From: Thioclava sediminum
Lineage (GTDB): Bacteria > Pseudomonadota > Alphaproteobacteria > Rhodobacterales > Rhodobacteraceae
Length of the DNA stretch: 39,660 nt
Direction: 5' to 3'
NCBI RefSeq assembly: GCF_002020355.1
Contig: NZ_MPZV01000006.1
Location: 1 to 39,660, forward strand
The notes under the pieces were generated by a model. The model did not search any database. It was not told the DNA's origin and worked only from the letters and a program-made list of their open reading frames with translations. Position numbers and translations under genes: made by a program. Positions 778-38,350 of the stretch are shown here, piece by piece. Each line of letters opens with the position of its first letter. Positions within the stretch are counted from its first letter, which is position 1.

Positions 778-782
778 GCCAA

Positions 783-3723: not shown

Positions 3724-3750
3724 TCTCTATCGACAGAACGGAGAGAAAAA

Positions 3751-3988: not shown

Positions 3989-4021
3989 AACTCAGAACAA
4001 AGCAGAAACGAGGGCAGAACT

Positions 4022-5960: not shown

Positions 5961-6001
5961 TCATTGTCAGCACGACGCAACGGGCTGACAAAAAACAGAA
6001 A

Positions 6002-6241
6002 ATGGGACGTCACATGACACTTGTTAAATATATGAATTCCGCGAAGACTATCGCCGCGCTGTCCGAAGCAAAGATCCTTGAATATGCCAAGCAATTGGCG
6101 TTCACCCGTGAAATGCTTGGACCAGTTGACGAAGGATCAAAGCGAGCGATGTCTTTCGATACAAGAGATCCTGAGACAGGTGTTTATATCAAGATCGAGT
6201 TCGGCGAGGACCCGCTTGGCATACCACAATATCCAGGATAA
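6002..6241 (+). CDS. Small hypothetical protein, monocistronic
   Basis: A protein of 79 aa, or 75 aa if started at the ATG at 6014 (MTLVKYMNSAKTIAAL). Neither start has a strong ribosome site, so the start is uncertain. The N-terminal half is helical. The C-terminal half (AMSFDTRDPETGVYIKIEFG) looks like a beta hairpin. It lies between a terminator plus class A element upstream and a strong bidirectional terminator downstream, so it is a stand-alone unit. No family recognised. Confidence 0.65.
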   Translation: MGRHMTLVKYMNSAKTIAALSEAKILEYAKQLAFTREMLGPVDEGSKRAMSFDTRDPETGVYIKIEFGEDPLGIPQYPG

Positions 6242-9088: not shown

Positions 9089-9208
9089 CGTCCAACTTCA
9101 AGTAGTTAGCGTCAAATTCGATCGTCCAATTTCAAGTAGATAAATGCGCTTTCTGGTGACTATCTAGCTTTGTCAGCAACTTAGCACCGTCCAACTTCAA
9201 GTAGTTAG
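9089..9208. repeat. Three direct repeats, consensus CGTCCAACTTCAAGTAGTTA
   Basis: Copies start at 9089, 9123 and 9188. The first and third are identical over 21 bases; the second differs at three. Spacings are 34 and 65 bases. They fill most of the gap between XRE 2 and the class A element at 9280. They could be operator sites for the XRE regulators or a second centromere-like site. No coding frame spans them. Confidence 0.75.
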
Positions 9209-9279: not shown

Positions 9280-9310
9280 ATTTGGGGATGCCTGTCGTCT
9301 CTCTAATTCC
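9280..9310 (+). promoter_or_regulatory. Class A promoter-like element (copy 5)
   Basis: Reads ATTTGG (9280-9285), 17 bases, then CTAATTCC (9303-9310). It lies 38 bases before the 9349 gene. The -10-like box and following TC match copy 4. Confidence 0.6.
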
Positions 9311-9348
9311 TCTCCAGGGACAATGAACAAACACCTTGGAGGGATAAA

Positions 9349-9765
9349 ATGTTCAATTTCATGAAGAAGCTCAAAGCGAAGAAGCAAGCTCCGGAGGCTC
9401 GAGTGGCGAGCCCGCGTGAAACGATGGCATTCGCGATGCAGGTCAATGACGACATTGCGGCCGGCCGGTTCGAGGAAGAGCGTAAAAGCATCATGGCTGC
9501 GGTTAATGTCGCAGCTCGCGAGCGGATGGAGCGCCGCAGACCGAAAAGCCGGTTCGACGAGCGCCTCGATGCACTCTCCGACGAGCGCATGCGTCATGAA
9601 GCGGCTGGTCGCAGAGGAATGGCTGCTGCTCGGGCCGCAATGGGCAAGGGTGACGATATGGAGATCAATGTCGAGGAGTTCGCGATGAAATCCGGAGCGC
9701 CCCTGCCCGAGCCTGCGATCAAGCCGCGTCGAGTGCGCGAACGGAACAGCGGACGGGAGAGGTAA
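9349..9765 (+). CDS. Basic, helical hypothetical protein
   Basis: A 138-aa protein beginning MFNFMKKLKAKKQAPEAR. CTTGGAGGGA sits at ideal distance before the ATG, and a class A element lies upstream. It is rich in Arg, Glu, Met and Ala throughout with no clear globular core (ERMERRRPKSRFDERL), suggesting an extended helix that binds nucleic acid or a protein partner. Two bases separate it from the next gene, so they form an operon. No family recognised. Confidence 0.7.
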   Translation: MFNFMKKLKAKKQAPEARVASPRETMAFAMQVNDDIAAGRFEEERKSIMAAVNVAARERMERRRPKSRFDERLDALSDERMRHEAAGRRGMAAARAAMGKGDDMEINVEEFAMKSGAPLPEPAIKPRRVRERNSGRER

Positions 9766-11545: not shown

Positions 11546-11667
11546 GTGAGGAAACTGGGGACTCCGGTGAGGTTTTCGGGGAATAGTGTGATGAAATCGG
11601 GGGTTATTGTGAGGTTTCCGGGGCAAAAAGTGAGGTTTCCGGGGAGAGGGTAGGGGACTTATCCACA
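11546..11667. other. Plasmid replication origin: five 21-bp iterons and a DnaA box
   Basis: Iterons of the form GTGAGGTTTTCGGGGA begin at 11546, 11567, 11588, 11609 and 11630, an exact 21-bp period, so all lie on one face of the helix. The last two are the most alike; the third is the most divergent. A perfect DnaA box TTATCCACA is at 11659-11667. An AT-rich stretch with GATTCTAA repeats lies just upstream (11480-11545) as a likely unwinding element. The Rep_3 initiator gene starts 78 bases downstream. This is a classic theta-type iteron origin. Confidence 0.92.
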
Positions 11668-14807: not shown

Positions 14808-14826
14808 CCAAGGGTTTTCCCCTTGG
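14808..14826 (-). other. 5' leader hairpin of the lysis operon
   Basis: On the minus strand CCAAGGG-GAAAA-CCCTTGG is a perfect 7-bp stem followed by AATTTTG. It begins at the last bases of the class B element and ends about 10 bases before the start codon. It may stabilise the mRNA 5' end or limit ribosome access. A terminator is possible but the T run is short. Confidence 0.6.
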
Positions 14827-14855
14827 ATATCTGTCCTCATGCCGCTTTCTGCGTG
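14825..14855 (-). promoter_or_regulatory. Class B late promoter-like element (copy 6), lysis operon
   Basis: Minus strand: CACGCAGAAA, eight bases, AGGACAGATATCC. It overlaps the stop region of the phosphoesterase gene and lies 28 bases before the first lysis gene. Confidence 0.65.
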
Positions 14856-15664
14856 TCCAGACGGTAGTTTCTCAAGAGCGAATTTGTCGAAATCTGCAAC
14901 AAATCAAGGTCGCCATCGCGGGGGTTGTTGAGCACGACGATGCCGCTCCATTCTTGCTCTGAGCATCTGCGCGGAGGCTTAAAACAGCCAGCGCAGACAG
15001 CGTGCATTCGTTGTCCGTCAGCTGCCACGCGCGTGTCATGTCCGAATGTGTGTGTATGGCCCCAAACGGCCGACCGTCCGAGCTTGTTGAGAGCCTGCGT
15101 GATCGGCACTGCCCTGCCGCGAACCCCGGATTCGAAGTAATGGCGAAAATTGATGCCAGAGAGCTGCAGGTTGTCGAGAAACCTGTGCGTCTGGATTCCT
15201 TGGCCATGCAGGAACTCATCGACGATGCCGCTGTCGAGCATCCCATCTAGCTCAGGAATGTGTGTTGGGATCTTGTTCAACCTGTCTTCATGGTTACCGC
15301 CGAGGAAATGGATTTCAGGCTCGTAGCATCGGTCTCTATGCCGTGCTCTGATGTGCCTGCGGTTCTCCGCCCGCATTGCCTCAAGCGTTGCTTTTAGAGC
15401 GTCTTCACCGGCGCGGAGATCGTTCAAAATTGTCTTTCCGGAGTGCCTTTTATTGCTACCAGCTCCGCCAACAGCACGCGATCCGTCATAGATAGAAAGC
15501 GACGGAAAATCCCACCAGTCGCCGCCCAGGACGACCTTCCCTGGGCGCGCAGTATTTATGAAATGGCCGAGCGCCGAGAACCGTTCAAAATCCTCTGCGC
15601 GCTCGTCGGGCCTGGCGTGAGCGTCAAAGACGCAGCAGATTGCGTCTTTCGACAGCTCGATCAT
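14837..15664 (-). CDS. Calcineurin-like metallophosphoesterase
   Basis: A 275-aa protein. I chose the ATG at 15664 (MIELSKDAICCVFDAHARPD), which overlaps the tail-protein stop as ATGA; the longer frame to 15718 lies inside that gene. The metal-binding blocks of the family are present: an initial D-x-H (FDAHARPD), GGDWWDF, GNHEDRL and WGHTHTFGHD. Substrates could be nucleic acid, nucleotides or phosphodiesters. Its place between a tail fibre-like gene and the lysis cassette is unusual for a DNA enzyme and might suit action on host surface polymer or on host signalling nucleotides, but this is only inference. Confidence 0.85.
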   Translation of the reverse strand: MIELSKDAICCVFDAHARPDERAEDFERFSALGHFINTARPGKVVLGGDWWDFPSLSIYDGSRAVGGAGSNKRHSGKTILNDLRAGEDALKATLEAMRAENRRHIRARHRDRCYEPEIHFLGGNHEDRLNKIPTHIPELDGMLDSGIVDEFLHGQGIQTHRFLDNLQLSGINFRHYFESGVRGRAVPITQALNKLGRSAVWGHTHTFGHDTRVAADGQRMHAVCAGCFKPPRRCSEQEWSGIVVLNNPRDGDLDLLQISTNSLLRNYRLDTQKAA

Positions 15665-18153
15665 TTCACTTCCTCGAGCTGCAAGATCGGATCTGCGAGA
15701 CTTCGGCCGAGCGTCCATTTTTCCGTCGGCGCTTCGGAGTAGAACAGGTCTCGCGAGGTTTCTGCATATCCCACGAGACGGCCGATGTCTGTGGGTAGGA
15801 TCGCACGATATGCAGTGCCGCCGATCGGCATGGCTTTTGCGACTGTCCAGGCCACAAGGTCCGGCGATGTCGAGACGTTCCCAGCCTGATCAGTCGCGAT
15901 CCATTCCTGCCGGCGCGCGTCGAATGCAACGAAAGATCCGGCCGCGATAGTCGATAGCGCATTCGTTGAACCACCGGAAATTCCAAGGATCGTTCCGTCC
16001 ATCAGAACGACTACGAGCCGCGGCTCTGCGATGATCTGGCTTGCGTCACTCGGCAGCGCGATTTTTGAGAACGTCGAGCCATTGTCTTCGGAGACTGCTG
16101 CCTGCGCGCCGGAGATAATCCCGATCGTCGCGTCGCGAGCTACGACAGCGCCAGGCGTGAACGGGACAGGTCCAATCCGAGACACATTATTCGCAGTGAC
16201 TTGATGCAGGGACTCTGGCGTAGCGATGATATTCCGGCGCCGCGTGAGGTCTCTGCAAACAGTGAGCGCCGTCTCGTTTCTCTGCGCGACTGTAACAACG
16301 CCGACATTGTCGAAATATGTGTTTGCTGGCGTTCCAGCCGACGCGATTTCGATGGTCACCTGCTCTGATTCCACAGCATCGAGTGAGCATGAGATCGTCT
16401 GCCAGAACCCAGGGTTGAGACCGTCTGTGTTCACCGATGCCTGGCGCCCACCTTGGCGAGTTCCGATCGTGTAGGGGTATGCGCCCGTGTTTGAGCCCTG
16501 CGTTGTAGACAGAGTCAGGATTTGTGTCGACCCAGAGCTAAAACTTACCTTTCTGCCGACCGGAGGGCGCCACCCACTCGGAATTGTTAGTGTAATCGTT
16601 TGGCCAGGGTATTGAGCGCTATTAAGTGAAATCTGAGTCTCGTTAATGAGGTCACCGTTACTCCAGCTCAGAAGCTCCAGTAACGACTTTGCTTCATTTA
16701 CAGTGCTCGGTATTGCTGCATGATTGACGTATGCACTTCCGCGCCAGCCATTGTTGAACTTAAACTCAATAGACTCGGTGAACTCATTCGATGTTTTTGT
16801 ATAATTCAGATCTACAACAATATCCTCGAGATGAGTTATGCTTGATGCATCACCATCAATAGCAATCTCAGACAGAGGATCTGAAATTTGCTCAGATGTA
16901 TAAAATCTGTATGGCCTCACTCCAGCATCATCATCAAAAACAGTCAGATCTGATGTTTTCAGAGTGAGCGTCCCGGTGCTGCCACTTGAGACAAAAACCT
17001 CGGCAAGGACAGTGACACTTGATCCGCTGCGGACTTTTGCAGCTTGCGAAATAGCAAAAGAACCATCTCCAGCGGACTTTGCGTCGCGTGTGAGATAGTA
17101 TTTCGAACCAAGCCTCTGCCGCGGTTGCTGTGTGTTCAGGACAGCCGGCTGAACCCCGCTCTCGAGCGTCCAGCCAGTGATATCTCCGGTCTCAAAATCA
17201 CCGTTCTCGAGTATCCCTTTTGTCTCTTGCTTGCTCTCGAGTTTTAGCTCTTTGAACTTATGCAGATCTGTCCCGAAATGTGCTTTCCCATCCGTAGTGA
17301 CGATAACAGTTCCGTCAGCCCCGAGTGTGGAGAACGAACTCGCATCTGATGGAGATCCTGGGATGCGGCTCCACGTTGCGCCGCAGTCGTCAGTATAGCT
17401 CAGCGCATTGAGGTGCAGTGCCACGAGAGAGCCAGAGCTTACATCTGGCGCGACCGGGACCATCGGATCTCCGGTTTCCGGGTCAGTGTATGAGTTGTCC
17501 GGCGTGTCGATCGTGCCGTCTCCATCGACAGGATCTGATGGCGCTGGCTCAGTCGGATCAGCCGTCGGTGTCTCTGGATCAACTGCAGAGAATGCGAGGT
17601 TCTCGGCGCTGATAAACCACTGTCCGAGCCGTTCGATATAGACAGCCTCAAAACGGTCTGCTGTTCCGGCTGCGCGCGGGTTAGATGGGGGGCCTCCAAC
17701 AGCATTTAGCGTGCTGGCTCCTGAATCGAACTCATACCCAAGGCGACCCCATGTTGCGGTCGGCCATGAGATGTTTGCGTCGACAGCGTGGAAGATGAGA
17801 ATACCAACGCGCCAAACGCGATAGCGTGATGATCCATCAGGCAGGAGTTGATTTTCTGGAACGGCTGGTGGCTTGTTGAGAGAGATCTGAACATCACCCT
17901 CGGCGCGAATGATGTAGTCCCCAAATTTGCCAGGCGAGATGTCACCAGACTTCTGATAGACAGAGGTCTCGACGCGGTTTCTCAGCTCAAGCTGATCATA
18001 GATCCTCTGACCGATGTGCTCATGTCCGCGCTTGTCGAGATTGACAGCGCCACCGGTTGCGGATGCAGATCCACCTGCGCGATCGCCAGTGGGGTCAGGG
18101 TTTGCGCCGACTGTGGATTTCAGGCCCTGCTGAGCGATCTGCCGTTCAAACAT
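15661..18153 (-). CDS. Large tail fibre/tip protein, likely host-recognition
   Basis: An 830-aa protein encoded directly after the tail hub gene. The N-terminal 150 residues look structural. A Pro/Asp/Thr-rich linker (about 195-235, DPTEPAPSDPVDGDGTIDTP) follows. The centre contains a segment beginning NGDFETGDITGWTLESG that resembles the first strand of carbohydrate-binding jelly-roll modules, and a second similar segment around residues 560-640 (FWQTISCSLDAVESEQVTIE). The C-terminal 180 residues have repeated beta patterns (EDNGSTFSKIAL, DGTILGISGG) like propeller blades. I infer sugar binding at the tail tip. The DNA around 16600-17000 is visibly richer in A and T than its flanks, suggesting an acquired module. 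Confidence 0.65.
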   Translation of the reverse strand: MFERQIAQQGLKSTVGANPDPTGDRAGGSASATGGAVNLDKRGHEHIGQRIYDQLELRNRVETSVYQKSGDISPGKFGDYIIRAEGDVQISLNKPPAVPENQLLPDGSSRYRVWRVGILIFHAVDANISWPTATWGRLGYEFDSGASTLNAVGGPPSNPRAAGTADRFEAVYIERLGQWFISAENLAFSAVDPETPTADPTEPAPSDPVDGDGTIDTPDNSYTDPETGDPMVPVAPDVSSGSLVALHLNALSYTDDCGATWSRIPGSPSDASSFSTLGADGTVIVTTDGKAHFGTDLHKFKELKLESKQETKGILENGDFETGDITGWTLESGVQPAVLNTQQPRQRLGSKYYLTRDAKSAGDGSFAISQAAKVRSGSSVTVLAEVFVSSGSTGTLTLKTSDLTVFDDDAGVRPYRFYTSEQISDPLSEIAIDGDASSITHLEDIVVDLNYTKTSNEFTESIEFKFNNGWRGSAYVNHAAIPSTVNEAKSLLELLSWSNGDLINETQISLNSAQYPGQTITLTIPSGWRPPVGRKVSFSSGSTQILTLSTTQGSNTGAYPYTIGTRQGGRQASVNTDGLNPGFWQTISCSLDAVESEQVTIEIASAGTPANTYFDNVGVVTVAQRNETALTVCRDLTRRRNIIATPESLHQVTANNVSRIGPVPFTPGAVVARDATIGIISGAQAAVSEDNGSTFSKIALPSDASQIIAEPRLVVVLMDGTILGISGGSTNALSTIAAGSFVAFDARRQEWIATDQAGNVSTSPDLVAWTVAKAMPIGGTAYRAILPTDIGRLVGYAETSRDLFYSEAPTEKWTLGRSLADPILQLEEVK

Positions 18154-19818
18154 TTATACTGTCGCCTGTTTCGGAATTCCGACCTCCCCAGTCACCGTCA
18201 CATCAAGATCCAGTTCGAGCTCAGTTGATGCCGCTGGCGTCGTCTGAACGGTCAGGGTTGTGCTCTGGATATCTGTCCCGGCGTTGAAATCTGCGCGTTG
18301 TTCCTCGCCGTTTCCACTGACCGAGACGGACACGCGCGCACCAGATGCGACAGGGATATTTCCGGCCGTGCTTACGCTTGCAGTGTCTGCCTGCCCGGTT
18401 CCTGCCGCGGCTGCGATAGTCCCGCTCATAATCCTCGAGCCGTCATCTCCACTCCATTTCAGAGAATACTGCACGAGTCGGCCGGTCACTGTTCCGCCGG
18501 GGATCCGAGGGTGCGTTAGCGTCACGGTGCAGTCGTCTGTGACCATCGCAGGCTTCGGCATTTTTGCTTCGAAACTCACACGGATGCAGCGAGAGGCAAT
18601 CCGCGCACGGGCTCGGATTCGCTCGACTGCATGAGCGATAGCTGCCTGTCCGCGGTCAGCGAGGAAGAAAGAGCTCTGGCGCCGACTCGCGAGATAGCTC
18701 GTCTCGCCAACGAGGATCCAATTTTCAGCATCTCTTGTTGCGCCTGATGTGTGGTCTGCACGCGCTTTGTAGGTATGTGACCCGTCGATCACCAGATCGT
18801 CTGCGAGATAGTCTGTGAATGGCTGCCAGAGAACGGCGCTCGGCAGATCGGTGATGTCGCGCAGATCAATGCTCTCGACCTCCGCGTCACTTCCGACTGC
18901 GCCAGACTGAATTCCGGCCTCGACAGAAAACGCGCAGGTCTCAGACCTGTTGAGCTCGGCTGAATAGCTGATGCCGAGCTCTGCGAGCATAGGAGCGAGC
19001 TCAGCGCGCTGTGGAATTTTACCAGCTGCGATCCACGCAGGGTCGAGTTCGTCGTCAGGCACGTCGATTTCGCGCTCGAGCTTCTCACGCTGCTGACGGC
19101 CAAACCCATCGAGCTGCTCTTTGCAGACAGCATGAGTGATCCTGAACCCGTCGCCAATCGTGCCGCCCTCTTTCGGAAAGTCGCTCGCGAAGGCCTCCGG
19201 CGTCATCGTCGAGAGGCCGCTGAACCAGCCGTCATCTCGGAAGCTCGTCGAGATGAGCTGTTTCCAACGCACTCCGAGCGAGACTCCGAAGGTCTTAGCG
19301 ACGTCGCTGCGGTCATATTGCAGCGACCCATCGAGCGGCATGAGCTGCAAATTCGACGCGCCGCTGAGAGCATCGACGGCTGCAACTCCGCCGCCGGTGC
19401 GGCTGTATGCGAGAACCTTCGAATATCCTGCGAGCACCTCAGCTGGATCGTCCTCAGAGCCGTCCGGAATGAATAGAGGGTCGTATCCTGGGGCAACCTT
19501 GAGAGACTCGATTACGGCCGCAATCTGCTGATCCACTTCGCCGCGCTTTCCTGTCACCTCGATCGAGAGGGTTTCCGCAACAGAACCGCGTGGGACGCTC
19601 GAAACAACGCCGTCGAATAGGAGCACGCCGCTCTCGCTTGCAAGAACGCGCTCGCCAACAATCCCAGACAATGAGGTCCGCGGATTGTCGATGTCGAGCG
19701 TCATCAGCGCGAGCTCGGACTCCGCTTGCGAGATTTCGAGATTGTAGGCCGTAAGATCGTTGCGGCTATGAACCGACGCGTCGAACTCATCTGACGCGTC
19801 GACGATTGCGAGATACAT
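18154..19818 (-). CDS. Tail hub/baseplate-like protein
   Basis: A 554-aa protein. The ATG at 19818 shares a base with the upstream stop. The N-terminal 110 residues (VHSRNDLTAYNLEISQAESE, then LALMTLDIDNP) resemble the hub domain that caps siphovirus tails. The middle carries a charged segment and the C-terminal 130 residues are Ser/Thr/Gly/Val rich, probably beta. Gene order (tape measure, glycine-rich adhesin, small protein, hub, fibre) supports a tail-tip role. A class B element lies inside its 3' end (18267-18297), where it encodes FNAGTDIQ, and would start transcription of the following gene. Confidence 0.6.
   Translation of the reverse strand: MYLAIVDASDEFDASVHSRNDLTAYNLEISQAESELALMTLDIDNPRTSLSGIVGERVLASESGVLLFDGVVSSVPRGSVAETLSIEVTGKRGEVDQQIAAVIESLKVAPGYDPLFIPDGSEDDPAEVLAGYSKVLAYSRTGGGVAAVDALSGASNLQLMPLDGSLQYDRSDVAKTFGVSLGVRWKQLISTSFRDDGWFSGLSTMTPEAFASDFPKEGGTIGDGFRITHAVCKEQLDGFGRQQREKLEREIDVPDDELDPAWIAAGKIPQRAELAPMLAELGISYSAELNRSETCAFSVEAGIQSGAVGSDAEVESIDLRDITDLPSAVLWQPFTDYLADDLVIDGSHTYKARADHTSGATRDAENWILVGETSYLASRRQSSFFLADRGQAAIAHAVERIRARARIASRCIRVSFEAKMPKPAMVTDDCTVTLTHPRIPGGTVTGRLVQYSLKWSGDDGSRIMSGTIAAAAGTGQADTASVSTAGNIPVASGARVSVSVSGNGEEQRADFNAGTDIQSTTLTVQTTPAASTELELDLDVTVTGEVGIPKQATV
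18267..18297 (-). promoter_or_regulatory. Class B promoter-like element inside a coding region (copy 5)
   Basis: Minus strand: CGCGCAGATT, eight bases, GGGACAGATATCC. It lies within the end of the hub gene, 114 bases before the 830-aa tail gene. Conservation here despite coding constraint supports a real function. Confidence 0.65.
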
Positions 19819-20153
19819 CAGAGCGCCTCCCATTTTTGGAGGTCTTCATTCCAGCTGTATTCGCTCGTGTCTCCAGGGCATGCGACAGGCGCCTGCCAGA
19901 CCCCGGACGCGTCGAGAGTCCAGCTCGAAAATGGTTGGGCAGAGATGAACTGGTCAGTGTCTGCATGATATAGCATTCCAACAGATGCAAACCGTTCCCT
20001 AACCGACCCATCCGGAAAAGTCTCGATCCAGTTCCCGCCGAGCCCGAGATCTGATGAGAGATATTCCTGGGCACGCGATACCTGCACCGCTGGAATGCTT
20101 ACGACACGCACAACGCGCGAGCTCTCATCAATTTCTGCGAAGTAAATAGCCAT
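19818..20153 (-). CDS. Small virion-associated protein of the tail region
   Basis: A 111-aa protein beginning MAIYFAEIDESSRVVRVVSI. The sequence carries the layout of a small phage protein often seen near tail fibres: an N-terminal 'yFAeID...V..V..I' unit, then FASVGMLYHADTDQFI, QPFSSWTLDASG and a C-terminal YSWNEDLQKWE. I recall this pattern from many tailed phages, where it is annotated as structural or left unnamed. It overlaps the stops and starts of its neighbours by one base each. Confidence 0.65.
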   Translation of the reverse strand: MAIYFAEIDESSRVVRVVSIPAVQVSRAQEYLSSDLGLGGNWIETFPDGSVRERFASVGMLYHADTDQFISAQPFSSWTLDASGVWQAPVACPGDTSEYSWNEDLQKWEAL

Positions 20154-23900: not shown

Positions 23901-24653
23901 TCAGCCTTTGATCTCGCGGAAGACACCGAACTGCGCGCCGGCCGGCTTCGAGGTGTCTTGGACAACATCGAATTTGACTTGGATGGTCGCAGCGTCAGTG
24001 CCCTCTTTGCTGAGAGTAAAATCTCCGTCCGGGTAAATCCGGACTTTCGCGTTGTATTTGAAGCGATTTCCTCCGCGGGTCTGGCGCTGGATCACCATCA
24101 ACTCGCCAGAGATTCCCTCAGATGCAGACAGTGCAGCGATCAAAGCCTTGTCATCAGCGTCAGTGATCGCGGCCGTGTCATATGCGCCAGTGTATGTCGT
24201 GATATCGACGAGGAAGGTCAGGATGCCAGCAGCTGCGTCGAGCTTATAGTCTTGCCCCTCAACCAGCGGGTCAGTTCCGTCTGTCAAGCTGGTGATAGTC
24301 ACATTCAGCGCGCCGAGATCGATGGTGTCACCAGCACTTGCAGATCCGCTAAGCGTGAGGCTGGTCTGCGCGTCCTGATTGATGAGGCCTTTGTTTGCAA
24401 GGGACGCCATCGCGATCTGACGGGCGCCAGTTTCACGCAGAACAGCTCCACCAGTGACCTTGCGCTCCGTTACCTCAGTATCGGCAAGGCTTCGGACGCC
24501 AGTGATCGACGAGAAAATCTCGTCTTTTGTGACCTCGGTATTGATCGAGATACTCTCGGTATGACCGAGCGACAGGAACACATTGGTGCCGTCGAGCTTG
24601 AAATACCCCTCGCCGGCTAGATTTCGGATTTTTTTGACGTCGGGCGAAGCCAT
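23901..24653 (-). CDS. Major tail tube protein
   Basis: A 250-aa protein beginning MASPDVKKIRNLAGEGYFKL. It is beta rich with a loop-insertion region (residues about 95-150, TLSGSASAGDTIDLGALNVT), and position after the terminator gene and before the chaperones supports the tube role. GAGGAGACC precedes the start. The class B element at 24685 lies 32 bases upstream, giving this abundant structural protein its own promoter. The likely homologues are siphovirus tube proteins of the lambda gpV fold, though I recognise it mainly by context. Confidence 0.75.
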   Translation of the reverse strand: MASPDVKKIRNLAGEGYFKLDGTNVFLSLGHTESISINTEVTKDEIFSSITGVRSLADTEVTERKVTGGAVLRETGARQIAMASLANKGLINQDAQTSLTLSGSASAGDTIDLGALNVTITSLTDGTDPLVEGQDYKLDAAAGILTFLVDITTYTGAYDTAAITDADDKALIAALSASEGISGELMVIQRQTRGGNRFKYNAKVRIYPDGDFTLSKEGTDAATIQVKFDVVQDTSKPAGAQFGVFREIKG

Positions 24654-24684
24654 TGGCAGGTCTCCTCGTGTGTATATTCATGAG

Positions 24685-24715
24685 GGATATCTGTCCCAGC
24701 CGTTAAAACTGCGCG
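24685..24715 (-). promoter_or_regulatory. Class B late promoter-like element (copy 1), tail tube gene
   Basis: Minus strand: CGCGCAGTTT, eight bases, GGGACAGATATCCC. It abuts the stop codon of the tail terminator gene and lies 32 bases before the tail tube start. Confidence 0.7.
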
Positions 24716-28309: not shown

Positions 28310-28336
28310 AGCTCAGTCCAATTCGTTGTTCACGAG

Positions 28337-28367
28337 GGATATCTGTCCCGGCCCGCTAAACTGCGCG
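28337..28367 (-). promoter_or_regulatory. Class B late promoter-like element (copy 2), protease-capsid
   Basis: Minus strand: CGCGCAGTTT, eight bases, GGGACAGATATCCC. It lies in the 75-base gap between portal and protease genes. A small TCGT-ACGA hairpin follows in the leader. Confidence 0.7.
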
Positions 28368-30242: not shown

Positions 30243-30267
30243 ATCCCCGGGGTTTTCTCCCGGGGAT
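30243..30267 (-). other. Leader hairpin overlapping the gpW ribosome-binding region
   Basis: A perfect 9-bp inverted repeat, ATCCCCGGG and CCCGGGGAT, with a 7-base A-rich loop. One arm overlaps the last bases of the class B element; the other contains the only purine-rich Shine-Dalgarno-like sequence (GGGGAT) before the gpW ATG. Translation of gpW and the coupled portal gene may therefore be damped. Confidence 0.65.
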
Positions 30268-30294
30268 ATCTGTCCCGATCTGCAAAACTGCGCG
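30264..30294 (-). promoter_or_regulatory. Class B late promoter-like element (copy 3), gpW-portal
   Basis: Minus strand: CGCGCAGTTT, eight bases, GGGACAGATATCCC. It abuts the stop codon of the terminase large subunit gene and lies 26 bases before the gpW-like start. Confidence 0.7.
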
Positions 30295-32899: not shown

Positions 32900-32985
32900 T
32901 TTTCAGCGCTCGTAAGTAGCGATTTACCGGGCACTCGGCCCCCTGCATACATAACCCGGCGGGGTCCAGGGTCCCCGGCCGGTTT
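32900..32985. other. Candidate cos site upstream of the terminase genes
   Basis: The gene-free stretch before terS holds a GC-rich partial dyad: GGCGGGGTCCAGGGTCCCCG (32958-32977), with GGGG and CCCC arms spaced as a 16-bp near-palindrome. AAACCCGG and ACCGGG words lie to the left (32891-32931). Lambda-type phages carry cos just upstream of the small subunit gene, with GC-rich 10-12 base staggered ends. Nick positions cannot be read from sequence alone, and the circular assembly hides them. Confidence 0.35.
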
Positions 32986-32991
32986 CATGTT

Positions 32992-33022
32992 GGATATCTG
33001 TCCTGTTTGACCAAACTGCGCG
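32992..33022 (-). promoter_or_regulatory. Class B late promoter-like element (copy 4), terminase
   Basis: Minus strand: CGCGCAGTTT, eight bases, AGGACAGATATCC. It lies just after the sigma factor gene and 129 bases before the small terminase subunit. It is the first element of the leftward late block. Confidence 0.7.
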
Positions 33023-33028: not shown

Positions 33029-33784
33029 TCACCAAATAAGCTCATCGAGCGAATGCCCGCGCGCTTTCAGTTCTTTCCTGAGCAGTTCAAGGCAGTTCCT
33101 CCTGCGGCTCGACAGATATTGGTGTGAAATCTCCATCTGTTTTGAGAGTGCAGTGAGAGAGACTGTGTCCTCGGACATAATCGTCTGCCGCATCAGCGCC
33201 TGGTCGATTGCCGGAAGATCCACGAGCAGCTCCTCTACAAGACCTCTCAGAGATGCTTGATGCACATCCTCAACAGAAACTGCATCGACGCCGATCCTGT
33301 GCTCCTCATCTTGAATGTCACTCGCCGGTGACCTGCTAAGCGTATATGCAGCGGAGACGTCTGCACCTGTGATGCCGAGTTCTGCCGCTGCGGCATTCAG
33401 TGCAGCTGATCGGCTATAACCCTCGCCCTCTAAACGAGAAACGATTGCACCGAGCCTATACCTCATGTTCCGGTCCGGCCTGCTCTTCGCCATACTCGCA
33501 GGTGTCGAGCTTGATCTCATCAGCTCGAACATCTCATTGCGCGCCAGAAAAAATACGAGCGCAGAGAATTTGCCCTGCTCCGGTTTGAATCGCTCGATCG
33601 CCTCAAGGATGCCGATCATTCCAGCGCCCTTGAGATCTTCGACGCTGATACCGCTCTGTTTGAACTGTCCGGCCATTTTCTTGATCATTGGCTCGACACT
33701 CTCGATGAGAGCAATGCGTGCATGCTCTGATCCGTTCTCTGTCCATTGACGCCAGAGTTCTGTCTGAAAGTTCTCAGGCCTCAT
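33029..33784 (-). CDS. Sigma-70 family RNA polymerase sigma factor 1
   Basis: A 251-aa protein. Region 2 lies at about residues 45-90: VEDLKGAGMIGILEAIERFK, then GKFSALVFFLARNEMFELMR, with core-binding and -10 recognition helices. Region 4 is at about 190-250 (SLTALSKQMEISHQYLSSRR, ending LKARGHSLDELIW). Size and the absence of regions 1.1 and 1.2 suggest an RpoH/SigB-like group 3 factor. It is a paralogue of the protein at 37541: both share a VEP(M/I)I segment near residue 32 and the closing RGxSLDxL motif. It starts inside the stop of a zinc-ribbon membrane protein gene, and a class A element precedes the pair. The first class B element follows directly. Confidence 0.88.
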   Translation of the reverse strand: MRPENFQTELWRQWTENGSEHARIALIESVEPMIKKMAGQFKQSGISVEDLKGAGMIGILEAIERFKPEQGKFSALVFFLARNEMFELMRSSSTPASMAKSRPDRNMRYRLGAIVSRLEGEGYSRSAALNAAAAELGITGADVSAAYTLSRSPASDIQDEEHRIGVDAVSVEDVHQASLRGLVEELLVDLPAIDQALMRQTIMSEDTVSLTALSKQMEISHQYLSSRRRNCLELLRKELKARGHSLDELIW

Positions 33785-34047
33785 TTAGACACCTGCTCAG
33801 TCTGCTCATCTGGATAGATTGTCTGGTCAGTGCGTATCGCAGCCGCGAGCAGCATTCCTCCGAGAAGAGTTCCGAGTAGAGCTCCACCGATCAGATCGCG
33901 AAGAATGCGGCGCCGTCCTCGGCTACGTGCGTCACGCTCGAACCAGCACTCAGTGCAGAGCTCTTTCCCTGGCTCGCGCTCATCGACACGCTCAGAGTTT
34001 TTCATGTAGCCGCAGCATGAGCACCGGACCATTCGTTTGTTGTTCAT
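33781..34047 (-). CDS. Zinc-ribbon membrane protein coupled to sigma factor 1 (possible anti-sigma)
   Basis: An 88-aa protein beginning MNNKRMVRCSCCGYMKNSER. Two Cys pairs (CSCC/CCGY at about residues 9-13 and CTEC at 31-34) form a likely zinc ribbon. A basic patch (RSRGRRRILRD) precedes one membrane segment LIGGALLGTLLGGMLLAAAI (about 54-73), and a short tail follows. A cytoplasmic zinc domain tethered to the membrane and translated in an ATGA overlap with a sigma gene is the classic setting of an anti-sigma factor. It lacks the HxxxCxxC motif of ZAS anti-sigmas, so the role is only inferred. Confidence 0.65.
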   Translation of the reverse strand: MNNKRMVRCSCCGYMKNSERVDEREPGKELCTECWFERDARSRGRRRILRDLIGGALLGTLLGGMLLAAAIRTDQTIYPDEQTEQVSK

Positions 34048-34071
34048 CGTCTCTCTCCCTGTTGTTTCAAG

Positions 34072-34102
34072 GGAGATGGAGAAATCTCAGGAAGATCCAA
34101 AA
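34072..34102 (-). promoter_or_regulatory. Class A promoter-like element (copy 9), sigma 1 operon
   Basis: Minus strand: TTTTGG (34102-34097), 18 bases, CATCTCC (34078-34072). It lies 25 bases before the zinc-ribbon gene and just after a terminator, so it should start a new transcript. Confidence 0.62.
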
Positions 34103-34121
34103 TTTCGAGAGGATCGCACGC

Positions 34122-34152
34122 AAAAAAAATGGGCCGCCCGAAGGCAGCCCAT
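34122..34152 (-). terminator. Terminator of the small membrane-protein operon
   Basis: Minus strand GGGCTGCC-TTCG-type loop-GGGCGGCCC followed by ATTTTTTTT. It lies after the stop of the 34167 gene and before class A copy 9. Confidence 0.85.
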
Positions 34153-34166
34153 GTAATGCAGGCAAT

Positions 34167-34391
34167 TCATACATTACCACGTATGATATTCACCACTCCG
34201 ATAAAAAGACCAAAGAACCAGATTGGCAAAAAGAACGCCCCAGATACAGCCTGCAGTGACGCTGTGAATGACGGCTCTGTAGATGCGTCAGCAATCCAAA
34301 CAAGCCATACCCCAAGTGATGCTATCAGCGCGCACACGATGAAATAGCTCAGGATCGTTAGCGCCATTAAAATCTTTTCGAGAGTTGTCAT
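34167..34391 (-). CDS. Two-TM membrane protein
   Basis: A 74-aa protein with two hydrophobic segments, LTILSYFIVCALIASLGVWL (about 11-30) and LQAVSGAFFLPIWFFGLFIG (about 46-65), and a short charged end. It overlaps the upstream gene by 4 bases. The pair is transcribed from a class A element and ends at a strong terminator, so it is an early, self-contained unit. Small early or lysogenic phage membrane proteins often block superinfection or DNA entry; that is a suggestion from context. No family recognised. Confidence 0.68.
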   Translation of the reverse strand: MTTLEKILMALTILSYFIVCALIASLGVWLVWIADASTEPSFTASLQAVSGAFFLPIWFFGLFIGVVNIIRGNV

Positions 34392-34666
34392 GCCGCACCG
34401 CCTTCTCCGAGCTTGTTCAATACATCGACAAAGATTTTGTCAGTCTCCTTGAGAACCCTCGCGCCGGCGTAGGTCTCTATGAAGGCGGACCACAAAGTCG
34501 CAATGAATATGCAGATGCCGATTTCAAAGCTGCTACATGCAACTCCAAAAATGAGAGCCACAACCGGAGAAAAGAAAAGCGTATAGTGAGCTCCGCTATA
34601 TATAAAACCGCGCCTGAAGCGAGACTGGACAGCCTTCAAGCTTGTGTCCAAAGCATACTTTTTCAT
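34388..34666 (-). CDS. Membrane protein, first gene of a two-gene operon
   Basis: A 92-aa protein. The basic N-terminus (MKKYALDTSLKAVQSRFRRG) precedes two close hydrophobic stretches (HYTLFFSPVVALIFGVACSS and FEIGICIFIATLWSAFIETY), then a charged helix (RVLKETDKIFVDVLNKLGEG). The arrangement suggests a helical hairpin in the inner membrane with both ends in the cytoplasm. GGAGGTTGGG precedes the start. Transcribed from class A copy 8. No family recognised. Confidence 0.68.
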   Translation of the reverse strand: MKKYALDTSLKAVQSRFRRGFIYSGAHYTLFFSPVVALIFGVACSSFEIGICIFIATLWSAFIETYAGARVLKETDKIFVDVLNKLGEGGAA

Positions 34667-34697
34667 CCCAACCTCCTACTTTCTATGCTGGTCTATT

Positions 34698-34728
34698 GGA
34701 CTTGGGTAAAACCCGCTCCGATCCAAAA
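34698..34728 (-). promoter_or_regulatory. Class A promoter-like element (copy 8), membrane-protein operon
   Basis: Minus strand: AAATTTTGG (TTTTGG at 34728-34723), 18 bases, CAAGTCC (34704-34698). It lies 31 bases before the 34666 start codon. Confidence 0.62.
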
Positions 34729-34750
34729 TTTCGACAGACAGAAAGACAGA

Positions 34751-34781
34751 AAAAGTTAGGCCGCCCCGAAGAGCGGACCTG
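34751..34781 (-). terminator. Probable minus-strand terminator with no clear gene upstream
   Basis: Minus strand AGGTCCGC-TCTTCGGG-GCGGCCT with one bulged base, then AACTTTTT. It implies a leftward transcript from the 34.8-35.1 kb region, which has no convincing long gene. Confidence 0.55.
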
Positions 34782-34785
34782 TTAG

Positions 34786-35215
34786 GCGAGGCGTCGTAGC
34801 GGCTATCCTTTCGACGCACGTAGTATCCCGCAGCTCAGCTCTGCCATCCGTAGATGCTCGCCTGTGCTGATATGTGTCCCTCTAATAGTTCCCGCGCGTC
34901 CGTAGCTCATCGAGCCCTGCACGCAGCTGCTCTACGTGCTCACGCGCACGCGCCAGTAGGTATGTCCCGTCGAGGAAAGATCTGCTCAGCATGCAGAGGA
35001 TATGCGTCCTTAGTCTGCGATCGCGTGTTGGTGTATCTCATGGCGCCCGTATTCCACGTCGAGCCACCTGAGAATGCAGGGCCAAATCACCAGCCCAACA
35101 TGACCAGGAAATTGCACAACCGCCGCAGCAAAGCCCGCTGTTTCTTCTCTTTTTCCTTTACATTACAGAGGTTTGCGGCCTATCGCTCCAAGAAACCGGC
35201 CTCATTTCTTTCCCT
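34786..35215. other. About 430 bases without a convincing gene; possible microproteins or small RNA
   Basis: No long frame here looks coding. Two overlapping short minus-strand frames are possible: 34882-34992 (36 aa, beginning MLSRSFLDGTYLLARAREHV) and 34803-34910 (35 aa, beginning MSYGRAGTIRGTHISTGEHL). They overlap, have weak ribosome sites and end just before the terminator at 34751-34781. The words AGGACGCATATCC (minus, around 35005) and GGGACACATATC (minus, around 34875) resemble the class B core. A small RNA or short-peptide transcript is plausible. Confidence 0.35.
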
Positions 35216-35223
35216 TAGGTAAT

Positions 35224-35515
35224 GGGACAGTGGGACAGAGGATGGGACAGAGGAATCGACCGTGTGTCCCACGATAAATCCCTGTTTTTCCTTATCTTTT
35301 TTACTTTTGGGACAGTGGGACAGAGGAAATACAAAAGTTTTGCGTGAGAAAGATAGAATACGGGGCACGCATACCCGTTATTCTATGTTTTCTATACCGA
35401 ACTTTTGGAAATTCAGTGTCCCATGTGTCCCATGTCTGTTTTTCTGTTTGTTTTTCGTGGCTTACGCTGTTCCAGAGGCCTTTTTTGTGTGTCCCAAGCA
35501 GTGTCCCACTGTCCC
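35224..35515. repeat. GGGACA/TGTCCC array, candidate lytic replication origin
   Basis: Eleven copies of GGGACA lie in 292 bases. Plus-strand copies are at 35224, 35232, 35244, 35309 and 35317; inverted copies (TGTCCC) at 35265, 35417, 35426, 35490, 35502 and 35510. A 20-base unit made of two words is repeated exactly around 35223 and 35308. Direct copies dominate the left and inverted copies the right, around an imperfect long dyad (ATAGAATACGGG and CCCGTTATTCTAT, 35354-35386) and T-rich tracts. A further copy lies in the promoter at 35592. Multiple binding words, a dyad and AT-rich DNA next to a primase/helicase gene are typical of a phage origin. Confidence 0.65.
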
Positions 35516-35573
35516 ACGATTAACCTTATCGGTTACGGCTCCGAAACTTTTTTCAGGAAAGTCAATCCCAAAA

Positions 35574-35605
35574 TTTTAGGATTATAGGACAGGGACACAT
35601 ATCCC
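35574..35605 (+). promoter_or_regulatory. Class A promoter-like element with GGGACA dyad (copy 6), primase gene
   Basis: Reads AAAATTTTAGG (TTTTAGG at 35574-35580), about 18 bases, then CATATCCC (35598-35605). The spacer and -10-like box together form GGGACACATATCCC, nearly the class B core. It may be regulated by the factor that binds the adjacent array. Confidence 0.55.
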
Positions 35606-35655
35606 TCCCACCCCGAGGAACAAAAACCCTCCCGGGGCTCACATGGGAGTGATAG

Positions 35656-37227
35656 ATGACAAAGAAAACCAAGCTTCCGAGCGTCAACAGGCGGCCAGCT
35701 GGCCTGACGCCGAAGATCGAGCAAGCAATTTCGAATGCAGCCGCTGGACTGACCGCGGCAGACGTTGAGGCCTATATCGACGGGCAAGCTGTCGAAGCAG
35801 TCTGCGAATGGCTGGAGAAGCGCCCGAGCGTCAAGGCAGAGCACCTTTGGTGGGTTCTCGAGCGGAACTGCAACGAGGACGAGATGCTGGCGGAGCTGGG
35901 CGTCGAAGAAGAGGCAGACCCGCTCCTCGACACAATGTCGAAGCTGCGTGATCGCTATGTGTATAGCACATTCAGGGATGAGGTATGGGATCGCCGTGCG
36001 AACTCGTGGATCTCGACCCGCGCTATGGACAATGCCGAAGCACATGCAATGCCGCTCGACGACAAGGGCCGCGCCTTCTCAGCGTTTGACGTATTCCGCC
36101 GCGATGCGAAGGCTGCCCGCGTGCATAACGAGCGCTACATGCCCGGCGTTGATCGCGAACTACCTGAGGCCGACGGCGTGAAGTGGCTCAATACCTGGAA
36201 GGCGCCGTCTGTGAAGCCCGCAAAGGGTGATGCGAGCATGATGCTCGATCACATGCTCTATCTGTGCAACGGTAACAAAGAGCAGGCCGGCCATCTCGCT
36301 GACTGGCTCGCCTACACCTACCAGAACCCCGGGAAGAAGATCACGCACGCACCGCTGATCATCAGCAACTATCAGGGCGTCGGAAAGGACACTCTCTCGA
36401 TCGCCATGAGCCGCGTAATCGGTGAGTCCAATGCATATTGGGTTCAAGACGAAGCTGTAAGCGAAGGCCGTTACCATTTCATGAAAGCGGCGCAGCTTGT
36501 CATCATTCCCGAGGTTATGTGCGGAGATCGCCGCGACATTGCCAACAAGTTCAAGCCTCTGATCACGCAGCCGACTGTCGAGATAAATGAAAAACACGTG
36601 AAGCCATATACCGTGCAAAACACAGCGAATTTCCTGATGTATTCAAACCAAGAAAACGCTGCGTATATCGAAGACAACGACCGCCGCTATTTCGTCGTCA
36701 TCTGCAAGCAGAAGCCACGTTCTCCGTCCTACTATGTCGACCTCTACGACTACATCAACGGCGACGACATTGCGTCTTTCGCGCACTTCCTCGCAACCCG
36801 TGACCTCTCGAAGTTCAACCCGTCGGCCCCTGCTCCTGACACCGAAGACAAAAAGGTCGTGCAGCGCGCTACCCGTGGCGGCGTCGAGGCATTCCTGAGC
36901 GATCTGTGGGAAAGCACTGCGGCCCCGTTCGACGGTGACGTCATCAATCTGCGCGAAGCCCTCGAGACGATCGCTGAGAAGAGAGGCGCCCCGAAAATGA
37001 CGATCCAGCAGATCTCGGCATTCCTCAAGAAAGTCGGAGGCGGCGATCTCAGCAAGAGGCGGATCGGCCGTGACGGCGGTTCCCAGATTCGCGTCTGGGC
37101 TGTCCGCAACTTCGAAGATCTTGAGAACGAAAGCCTCGCTGTGCTCGACAAGTGCTACATCGAGCGCAAGAGCCTCTCAGCTGCCCGCTTCGTTGTTCAG
37201 AACTCCGCGACGAGCAAAGCATCCTAA
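35656..37227 (+). CDS. Phage primase/helicase ATPase (DUF5906, SF3-like)
   Basis: A 523-aa protein. The central ATPase (about residues 200-390) shows a Walker A-like NYQGVGKDTLS (about 234-244) and Walker B-like QLVIIPEVM, then KPLITQPTVEINEKHVKPYT and FLMYSNQENAAYIEDNDRRY, the sensor and arginine region seen in DUF5906 and related D5/SF3 phage helicases. No N-terminal AEP primase motif (DxD with His) is evident, so it may be helicase only. The C-terminal 130 residues look like a winged-helix DNA-binding domain. It starts after a class A element next to the GGGACA array and probably drives lytic replication there. Confidence 0.82.
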   Translation: MTKKTKLPSVNRRPAGLTPKIEQAISNAAAGLTAADVEAYIDGQAVEAVCEWLEKRPSVKAEHLWWVLERNCNEDEMLAELGVEEEADPLLDTMSKLRDRYVYSTFRDEVWDRRANSWISTRAMDNAEAHAMPLDDKGRAFSAFDVFRRDAKAARVHNERYMPGVDRELPEADGVKWLNTWKAPSVKPAKGDASMMLDHMLYLCNGNKEQAGHLADWLAYTYQNPGKKITHAPLIISNYQGVGKDTLSIAMSRVIGESNAYWVQDEAVSEGRYHFMKAAQLVIIPEVMCGDRRDIANKFKPLITQPTVEINEKHVKPYTVQNTANFLMYSNQENAAYIEDNDRRYFVVICKQKPRSPSYYVDLYDYINGDDIASFAHFLATRDLSKFNPSAPAPDTEDKKVVQRATRGGVEAFLSDLWESTAAPFDGDVINLREALETIAEKRGAPKMTIQQISAFLKKVGGGDLSKRRIGRDGGSQIRVWAVRNFEDLENESLAVLDKCYIERKSLSAARFVVQNSATSKAS

Positions 37228-37271
37228 CCAGTTCCCGAGCAGCCCGGGTAAGGCTGCAACTCCCATGACCT

Positions 37272-37297
37272 GCCCCGGCTTCGGCCGGGGCTTTTTT
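37272..37297 (+). terminator. Strong rho-independent terminator after the primase/helicase gene
   Basis: GCCCCGGC (37272-37279), loop TTCG, GCCGGGGC (37284-37291), then TTTTTT. A perfect 8-bp GC stem with a stable tetraloop. Confidence 0.92.
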
Positions 37298-37312
37298 ATG
37301 CTATGATGCGTC

Positions 37313-37462
37313 ATGCGCAATCGAACCAAAGAGAACATCATTTACAGGCTGCTAGCTCGATTCCGCTTGCTGCTCATGCATCATAGACGGTCATCTGATC
37401 GCGCCTTCTCCGAGGCTTTCAAGAAATCGCGCGGCCGCATCGAAGATGACATCGAACTCTGA
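37313..37462 (+). CDS. 49-aa basic small protein
   Basis: Starts MRNRTKENIIYRLLARFRLL and ends GRIEDDIEL at TGA 37460. It is very basic in its first 30 residues and amphipathic, with an acidic tail. No clear ribosome site is present and the promoter is unclear, since a strong terminator lies just upstream and a class A element only begins after it. Coding is possible but uncertain. No family recognised. Confidence 0.35.
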   Translation: MRNRTKENIIYRLLARFRLLLMHHRRSSDRAFSEAFKKSRGRIEDDIEL

Positions 37463-37473
37463 CCGCTGAAAAT

Positions 37474-37503
37474 TTTTGGTTTCTATGAAATTTCCCCAAC
37501 TCC
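37474..37503 (+). promoter_or_regulatory. Class A promoter-like element (copy 7), sigma factor 2
   Basis: Reads TTTTGG (37474-37479), 17 bases, CAACTCC (37497-37503). It lies 37 bases before the second sigma factor gene. Confidence 0.62.
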
Positions 37504-37540
37504 CTCTCAAGACAGAAAGACAGACAGAGGGACTGGGACG

Positions 37541-38350
37541 ATGGGTGCGAAATTTGACTACAAAGGATTCCAGGACGCGTGGGTGAAAGCCTACCGAGAG
37601 GATGGCGATGAGAACGCGTTTAAGCTGTTGCTCGATAGCGTTGAGCCGATCATTCGCGGCGAGGTTCGTCACGCAGCGAAAATCCATCCTCATATCGACC
37701 GAGACGATCTTTACTCAGAGGGTGTTGTCGGAGTTATGAATGCGCTCGAGAGGTTCGACCTGTCGAACGAAGCTTCATTCGGGACCTATGCCAGGTTTTG
37801 GATCCGCGAGCGTGTGCTGATGTTTGTGCATATGAACAAGTCAGCGACGTCAGCGAAGACAGGCGCGAAGGAGCGCTCGGCGAACCTGCGCGCCCATGCT
37901 CTCGTGTCGAGCTATGAGCATGCTGGTATGAGTAACTCCAAAGCAATCGAACAGACAGCTGGCGAGCTAGACACTACAGTGCAGCATGTTAGCTCGATCC
38001 TCGTGCGCGATGCAGGCATTGACGTCGCATCCGCTGATGACTACGGGCTTCTCGTTGTAGGCGGGTGCGCTGATGACAGTATGAGCACGATCTCACGCGA
38101 AGAGCTCGCTGAGCTCATTGAGAATGCGATCCAAGGACTCGCGAGAGGGCGTGCAAGCGAGAAGCGCAAGCAGTTTGCGCGAGATGTGATGTCTCGTGCG
38201 TTTGCAGATGAAGAGAAGGTCGTTCTCAGCACGATCGGCAACGAGCTTGGGGTCACAGGTCAGACGATCCGGAACTGCATTCGCGACGTGACAGAACTCG
38301 CGCGCAGAGATCTCGAGAGCCGCGGCCTCAGTCTAGATGATCTACTGTGA
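37541..38350 (+). CDS. Sigma-70 family RNA polymerase sigma factor 2
   Basis: A 269-aa protein. Region 2 is very clear at about residues 50-100: RDDLYSEGVVGVMNALERFD, then ASFGTYARFWIRERVLMFVH, with the aromatic and basic residues that melt the -10 element. A linker with NSKAIEQTAGELDTTVQHVS follows (region 3-like), and region 4 is at about 210-265 (LSTIGNELGVTGQTIRNCIR), ending LESRGLSLDDLL. It is paralogous to the factor at 33029 but has a better-preserved region 2. It has its own class A element, so autoregulation is possible. It and sigma 1 probably read the two promoter classes on this element. Confidence 0.9.
   Translation: MGAKFDYKGFQDAWVKAYREDGDENAFKLLLDSVEPIIRGEVRHAAKIHPHIDRDDLYSEGVVGVMNALERFDLSNEASFGTYARFWIRERVLMFVHMNKSATSAKTGAKERSANLRAHALVSSYEHAGMSNSKAIEQTAGELDTTVQHVSSILVRDAGIDVASADDYGLLVVGGCADDSMSTISREELAELIENAIQGLARGRASEKRKQFARDVMSRAFADEEKVVLSTIGNELGVTGQTIRNCIRDVTELARRDLESRGLSLDDLL

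Follow-up and report, generated by a model that had tools for sequence, protein, structure and literature searches.

How much of its own gene expression can a small phage-plasmid control with private sigma factors, and at which steps? The question is raised by contig NZ_MPZV01000006.1 of Thioclava sediminum, analysed here over its whole length of 39,660 nt (the window), which encodes two sigma-70 family proteins, S1 and S2. The window is the entire sixth contig of a 4.13-Mb genome, and a 77-bp exact repeat at its two ends gives a circle length of ~39.58 kb. Phage genes were assigned by Pfam and PHROG (gpA-type terminase, lambda-type portal, ClpP-type protease, capsid E, tape measure, endolysin), and the plasmid functions comprise a ParA-type ATPase and a Rep3 initiator; two Cro/CI-type proteins are also encoded. 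Based on the end repeat, the phage structural genes and the ParA-type ATPase/Rep3 pair, the window is a complete circular temperate phage-plasmid of a Rhodobacterales bacterium. We favour, with a probability of roughly 0.55, a reading in which this element combines sigma factors of its own with two promoter families and with translation locks embedded in the promoters.

Much of the evidence comes from comparison with a sister element of 45.8 kb, IMGVR_UViG_3300035698_014120 (G689), reached through an exonuclease match. The sister is complete and circular, with a 127-bp end overlap, and its structural genes stand in the same order as those of the window at 26-60% identity (RepA 84%, ParA 54%).

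The two sigma factors

33029-33784, minus strand: sigma factor S1, 251 aa (Pfam/PHROG, predicted model, fold search)
37541-38350, plus strand: sigma factor S2, 269 aa (Pfam/PHROG, predicted model, fold search)

Both genes had been named as sigma-70 family members in a preliminary description of this DNA, and the assignment is borne out: each protein has a Sigma70_r2 domain above the Pfam cut-off (E 1.4e-11 for S1, 5.2e-10 for S2) and matches PHROG 351, 'RNA polymerase sigma factor'. The Pfam match to Sigma70_r4 lies below the curated cut-off in S2 (E 5.8e-4), is lacking in S1 and reaches E 6.5e-12 in the sigma factor of the sister. With NCBIfam, both proteins fell under the curated cut-offs of the SigBFG, FliA/WhiG, RpoH and RpoS models, and the only model passed by S1 was that of the general sigma70-ECF superfamily. 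The AlphaFold models (pLDDT 73.0 for S1 and 71.5 for S2) align over nearly their full length with solved sigma factors, with low overall TM-scores of ~0.3. The S1 gene is the second gene of an operon with a promoter of the first class described below (class A) and lies directly upstream of a promoter of the second class (class B, 32992), while S2 sits behind a class A promoter of its own, so that class A sites do precede both sigma operons, as had been described.

In a tree of 18 rows with several long branches, S1, S2, the sister sigma and the proteins G088, G253a and G087 form a clade (91/97, just below the star level of the tool), which lies apart from two host sigma-32 proteins, named by NCBIfam, and one protein of 671 aa, for which the label RpoD-like was inferred. 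Within the clade S2 is basal and S1 groups with the remainder (82/79, an open fork). On this tree, S1 and S2 are old paralogs within a family of mobile-element sigma factors. The duplication proposed earlier thus stands in so far as the two are paralogs, but at about 27% identity they are too distant for a recent event, and the epithet 'host-like' suits them poorly.

Close relatives of S1 and S2 are rare in the collections searched (IMG/VR, phage and plasmid records). For S1, one IMG/VR locus was found, which is the same element, together with two weak matches among 50,697 phage records and five weak plasmid records. No SPO1-like phage is named among the two phage matches of S1 or the best 20 of the 24 of S2, gp28 and gp34 not having been compared directly. 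A profile search across the class (profile A2) was swamped, with 382 of 385 genomes matched, and many of the matches in the family (20 of 295 genomes, including that of the window) and in Salipiger (20 of 20) are probably sigma-32. All four proteins that were checked (two from the host, one from the family search and one from the Salipiger search) are sigma-32 by NCBIfam.

Two further loci hold sigma genes of this kind. On G253:C101 (L033, 2013-3315) two adjoin each other, the second being shorter as read. In Salipiger bermudensis AmN7-7 (L090; G088:C4, ~133900-136300), a member of the Rhodobacterales from the host's own taxonomic family, a sigma gene of this kind adjoins the gene of a 62% identical exonuclease, and the locus, on a 591-kb contig, is apparently the remnant of an element.

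Two promoter classes with a common predicted start geometry

Class A sites consist of TTTTGG, a spacer of 17-19 bp and a TANNTCC-like box, and are found before small early-type, recombination and sigma genes.

34066-34102, minus strand: class A promoter of the S1 operon (-35 at 34097-34102, -10 box at 34072-34081, predicted +1 at 34066); closely similar to sister site 36477
37474-37509, plus strand: class A promoter of S2 (predicted +1 at 37509)
34692-34728, minus strand: class A promoter before the small open reading frame (ORF) 34388-34666
3050-3086, plus strand: class A promoter with relaxed -35, before ORF 3110-3406
3693-3729, plus strand: class A promoter before ORF 3751-3954; no lock gain (see below)
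3957-3994, plus strand: class A promoter of the exonuclease operon (4022-5843); no lock gain; candidate orthologous sister site 6704
5931-5966, plus strand: class A promoter before ORF 6002-6241
9280-9316, plus strand: class A promoter with relaxed -35, before ORF 9349-9765
35575-35610, plus strand: hybrid element with class A-like -35 and class B-like -10, before the primase-like gene 35656-37227

The strict pattern TTTTGG-N16-20-A(A/T)NTCC occurs six times in the window, compared with a mean of 0.06 and a maximum of 1 in 100 dinucleotide shuffles. The whole genome contains 12 matches, six on this contig and six in the other 4.09 Mb, and the reversed control gave three. Nine class A elements had been counted before; six are strict matches, and the two relaxed sites (3050, 9280) and the hybrid (35575) would complete the nine.

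Class B sites consist of GCGCAGTTT, a fixed spacing and GGGACAGATATC, and are found before structural genes, lysis genes and a helicase-like gene.

32986-33020, minus strand: class B promoter before the small terminase gene; sister site 35612
30258-30292, minus strand: class B promoter before the head-tail adaptor gene; sister site 32790
28331-28365, minus strand: class B promoter before the head protease gene; sister site 30825
24679-24713, minus strand: class B promoter before the tail gene 23901-24653; sister site 27131
18261-18295, minus strand: class B element within the end of 18154-19833, upstream of 15661-18153; no sister class B ortholog found
14819-14853, minus strand: class B promoter before the lysis cluster; sister site 18034, after the tail genes
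777-811, minus strand: class B promoter of the helicase-like gene (ResIII/AAA_30); sister site 4113, with the same geometry

Six exact copies of GGACAGATATCC, all on the minus strand, account for every copy in the genome, and the seventh site, at 783, has one mismatch and is backed by its orthologous sister site. The spacing is identical in 7/7 sites, in agreement with the seven elements reported previously. The upstream half CGCAGTTT is complete in four of the seven, with CGCAG kept in six and CGCA in all. Class B had also been described as preceding late genes only, which does not hold, since the site at 783 precedes the helicase-like gene; the sites do stand before the structural operons, with the exception that the one at 18267 lies inside coding sequence. 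When words upstream of 51 genes were ranked, those of class B came first (the 8-mer CAGATATC in 7 regions, against a maximum of 5 in 50 shuffles). The class A 8-mer ATTTTGGA, present in 5 regions, equals the shuffle maximum without rising above it; the 7-mers of both classes likewise reach and do not exceed theirs (8).

The two classes had been said to share a downstream box and to differ in the upstream half, and both the alignment and the register of the sites agree. At 35 of 36 sites the base that lies exactly 8 nt beyond the -10 T is a purine (A 28, G 7, T 1; p 5e-10), the next best of the 15 offsets examined giving 26/36, and the sole exception is an intragenic match that itself lacks the -10 T. 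The set comprised class A sites taken by score (11 in the window at a score of at least 14 and 12 in the sister at a score of at least 12) and all 13 class B sites, and the class A model was trained on window sites and blind to the +8 position. At the helicase-like gene of both elements, the A of the ATG coincides with the predicted +1 (window 777, G689 4096, both minus strand), which suggests a leaderless mRNA conserved in the two. The base 8 nt after the -10 T is likely the transcription start, and classes A and B look like promoters of one type, with the same -10-to-start geometry and different -35 halves.

Two known sigma specificities were tried as explanations of the motifs and set aside. 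Sigma28 (FliA) promoters have the consensus TAAAGTTT-N11-GCCGATAA, with which the class B arrangement CGCAGTTT-N11-ACAGATAT agrees at ~10/16 positions; this reading was dropped because class B fits the frame of class A and because the sister's upstream half is unlike the FliA consensus. Class A matched the RpoH consensus, CCCCATNT, only in part. Two pattern matches in IMG/VR (L046, L049) contain no homologs of window genes and were attributed to chance.

Promoters and sigma factor of the sister element

In G689, six operons orthologous to those of the window have a class B site, in each case on the minus strand, and the spacing is the same in 13/13 sites (seven in the window and six in the sister). 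The -10 half is kept as GGAC[A/T]GATAT, with GGACGGATAT at window 783, while the upstream half is GCGCA(GTTT) or a near variant in the window and GCCCGAAA in the sister. The upstream half has changed in concert (GCGCAGTTT in the window, GCCCGAAAC in the sister), whereas the spacing and the -10 are preserved. When a promoter family co-evolves with a single reader, all of its sites are expected to change without losing their position or spacing, and the concerted change of the -35 half is what would result if the class B promoters diverged together with such a reader. GGGACWGATATC was not found in the G088, G253 and G087 genomes.

The best class A sites of the sister are 16067 and, where the window has its S1 operon, 36477; weaker ones lie at 6704 (TTTTGA), before the exonuclease operon, and 43752 (TTTCCG), before the sigma gene. 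That gene (43802-44593) stands at the S2 position and is the only one; a profile search of six-frame ORFs found no second sigma (next best E 0.97). At the S1 position the sister has small ORFs, and no window protein matched those that separate its class A site from the small terminase gene.

Promoter segments complementary to Shine-Dalgarno sequences

What the preliminary description missed is that the TCC shared by both classes also forms one side of a hairpin, the left arm, whose partner is the Shine-Dalgarno sequence (SD). The segment from the -10 to the start is complementary to the SD of the downstream gene, and the pairing is kept while the sequences change; the stems are stable, and the SD mostly lies in the right arm. 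In 23 unselected class A sites, own-arm pairing scored 13.89 compared with 11.72 after re-pairing of arms between sites (standard deviation 0.52; 0 of 20,000 permutations), and an own-arm excess was also obtained for the sister class A sites alone (p 0.00055) and for the 13 class B sites (p 0.00125). Because the exchange of arms between sites lowers the pairing, the complementarity extends beyond the shared TCC/GGAG. The unselected sets were defined by cut-offs of 14 in the window and 12 in the sister, overlapping registers of one site being merged by hand, and are a fairer test than a set of 18 hairpins that held sites picked by eye (G088, G088b, G253). Visual inspection showed a lock signature in a third element as well (G088), close to its sigma gene.

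RNA folding in silico points in the same direction. The median accessibility of the SD was 0.20 in read-through RNA and 0.74 in RNA begun at the predicted +1, with a gain of more than 0.3 at 20 of 27 sites and in 15% of 495 control gene-by-leader combinations, which are not mutually independent. From the full sets, four of the 23 class A sites had been dropped (L092 5805, L100 2842, L100 10778 and L101 2983), being inside or near genes or having no start assigned, although L100 2842 precedes a tail gene; five of the 13 class B sites were dropped (window 32992, 18267 and 783; sister 35612 and 4113) for a long leader, a leaderless start or an intragenic position.

Several observations weaken the case for such locks. 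The arm windows and the score were fixed after the first hairpins had been observed, and the window class A sites taken alone give a weak excess (p 0.064 for 11 unselected sites; 0.04-0.10 for 8 sites). The gain was below 0.3 at 7/27 sites (window 3693, 3957, 13157 and 28337; L092 16067; sister 27131 and 18034), and the hairpins of G253 and G088b depart from the pattern.

As the left arm precedes the predicted +1, selection to maintain the pairing is understandable if read-through RNA matters. The odds appear about even that most promoters of the phage double as anti-SD arms and impose a genome-wide two-key control, under which good translation would be obtained only from RNA begun at the element's own sigma promoter.

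A rival account takes the box as a translational operator or an mRNA 5' stabiliser rather than a -10, with transcription starting upstream of the TCC and hairpins present in all transcripts. Stable stems with the SD mostly in the right arm, and arms that vary while pairing is kept, are what it expects. The +8 purine at 35/36 sites and the two helicase starts located there argue, on the other hand, that the RNA begins after the left arm, and we consider this account improbable.

Which sigma factor reads which class

In the mechanism that we propose, at least one phage sigma would direct the host core RNA polymerase to these promoters. Early expression from class A would yield the sigma factor, which would then turn on class B, and from the positions of the promoters we infer autoregulation and an early-late switch. 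RNA entering from upstream would be poorly translated, the pre-+1 segment pairing with the downstream SD, as the covariation suggests, while RNA begun at a phage promoter would lack the left arm and be translated. The choice of promoter would in this way gate transcription and translation together, and the locks may silence leakage from outside promoters in a phage kept as a plasmid.

A number of results weigh against parts of this mechanism, foremost those from the sister. It had been proposed that one sigma of the window reads class A and the other class B, and such an assignment is not established; one-to-one pairing does not seem to be general, because G689 holds both classes with one sigma, which may serve both. 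Only two class A matches in the sister (26.1 and 25.7) exceed the best of 20 shuffles (20.6), and several of the weaker ones may be false, as scores of at least 12 also arise by chance, at a mean of 5.65 counts per shuffle. Of the class A-like sites noticed by eye immediately upstream of sigma genes elsewhere, that of S. bermudensis (G088) scores 8.9 and that of G253 is absent from the model's listing. Furthermore, class A may be read by the host, because its -10 (CTAWNTC) resembles the alphaproteobacterial RpoD -10, GCTANAWC (PMC8144410), which goes with a TTGaCgS -35, and because the host groESL promoter contains TAACTCC.

The strongest alternative builds on this likeness: a host sigma (RpoD or RpoH) would read class A and the phage sigma or sigmas class B only, giving an early-host, late-phage order. 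It would account for a sister with both classes and one sigma, and for the recurrence there of the class A TTTTGG while the class B upstream half has changed; the grouping of the sister sigma with S1 rather than S2 also fits, at the open fork noted above. Against it, the class A -35 is TTTTGG and the -10 agrees with that of RpoD promoters only in part, and no enrichment of such sites was seen in the host genome. TTGACN16-19CTAWNTC gave 2 matches (6 in the reversed control), CTAWNTCC occurs before host genes 3 times in sense and 7 times in antisense (296 regions in 800 kb, with crude ORF calls in a 64% GC genome), and the TTTTGG pattern has just the six matches elsewhere in the genome. The -10 and +1 register common to classes A and B also speaks against it, and the class A-like sites before the sigma genes of G088 and G253 favour a phage sigma. 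We lean towards a phage sigma as the reader of class A and regard the host-sigma scheme as possible but the less probable of the two.

That common register, the rigid class B spacing and the single sigma of the sister would equally suit a scheme in which one phage sigma recognizes the shared -10 box in both classes, an activator binds at GCGCAGTTT or GCCCGAAAC in class B, and the second sigma of the window is extra. No conserved activator candidate was found, the small ORFs of the sister being unmatched by window proteins, and we regard this scheme as rather unlikely. That the elements are binding sites for a repressor or partition protein instead of promoters, as the need for silencing in the plasmid state and the two Cro/CI-type proteins might suggest, is very unlikely given their orientation, their distance to start codons, a -35/-10 spacing that varies among class A sites, and the constant position of the +1 purine.

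Other features and relatives

A hairpin of sequence GGGGACCCTGG(G)ACCCC, with ATGCAGGGG after it, is conserved in the two elements and separates the class B promoter from the small terminase gene.

~32940-32980, minus strand (G689 ~35560-35605): hairpin, candidate cos or pac site

The protein encoded at 862-2532, which has no Pfam match, is 35% identical over 391 residues to a G689 protein and presumably resembles a mobilisation relaxase; upstream of its gene a -10 box and hairpin are present and TTTTGG is absent. By eye, an AT-rich stretch at ~35220-35600, before the primase-like gene, contains many GGGACAG/CTGTCCC words and is a possible lytic origin, and short direct repeats at ~11560-11650 and ~9090-9200 (GTGAGGTTTCCGGGG-like before RepA; CCAACTTCAAGTAG) are possible plasmid iterons. 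Rfam gave no match at gathering thresholds. In the host genome, the groESL promoter region (L132, 1394-1460) reads TTGACA-N18-TAACTCC, with a CIRCE-type repeat after it.

Terminase, capsid and Rep searches of phage and plasmid records returned no relative of the structural genes closer than G689. A capsid search of 394 family genomes found the window and G160 (E 6.9e-41), whose related capsid gene (G160:C166, 5535-6533; L113) may mark another relative; a weak sigma match in that genome (G160:C239, 4858-5625; L029; E 9.3e-9) is on a separate contig. Further IMG/VR scans gave the element of the window, the sister and one weak match. Rep relatives at 64-71% identity are found on four plasmids of 31-45 kb from Thioclava, Pukyongiella, Paracoccus and Acuticoccus (L107-L110), for which the incomplete gene tables list no phage structural genes. 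The gene listing of a Halomonas phage-plasmid contains no sigma.

Relation to known systems

SPO1 and SP10 are large lytic phages in which each sigma reads its own promoter class. The window resembles them in combining at least two phage sigma factors with distinct promoter classes, a combination that the sister, with one sigma, lacks. SPO1 and SP10 are Bacillus phages, while the present element is a 40-kb plasmid-borne one of Rhodobacterales, its sigmas form their own clade, and its two classes have a -10 box in common. More than one sigma per phage is an established phenomenon (PMC9429907). As with T4 gp55, a phage sigma would serve late genes, but T4 late promoters are described as a -10-like TATAAATA (PMC3014915), whereas in class B a long upstream half is conserved among the sites of either element. 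Sigma genes on lysogenic phages are also known from the Bacillus phages Bcp1 and Wip4, which were studied for effects on host traits (PMC2716549); in the present case the evident targets are promoters of the phage itself. Plasmids often carry sigma genes in the related genus Sulfitobacter (33 plasmids, ~20%), and no phage-plasmids are reported among the plasmids of that study (PMC13386836).

The closest parallel to the locks is found in T4 genes e, soc and 49 and I-TevI, where a hairpin contains the promoter in its 5' arm, the SD is masked in read-through RNA and RNA started at the promoter is free (PMC3014915, PMC2988022). In both cases an inverted repeat joins a promoter-proximal segment to the SD, weakly so for window class A alone. 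The T4 locks are described in these sources for a handful of genes of T4 and its relatives, whereas here the signature appears in two diverged elements, at the majority of the class A and class B promoters tested, its start within the hairpin being predicted from the +8 purine in the DNA sequence. The complementarity between the -10-to-start segment and the SD is the new element of the present findings, and the device of T4 gene e and I-TevI is apparently present at most promoters tested. Titles and abstract openings in the literature, weak evidence as most subscription journals lay outside the search, yielded neither a sigma cascade on a phage-plasmid nor genome-wide promoter-embedded locks.

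If the proposed reading is correct, a temperate phage-plasmid would run a compact sigma-driven programme in which private sigma factors are coupled to translation, and the gene e device, otherwise a matter of single genes, would operate at the majority of promoters in a genome. Under two-key control, a phage carried as a plasmid would stay silent even when transcripts from host promoters run into it. The sister pair offers a natural experiment on how the -35 half of an entire promoter family changes along with the factor that reads it. For gene expression in Rhodobacterales, private promoters that bring their own translational insulation would be useful parts.

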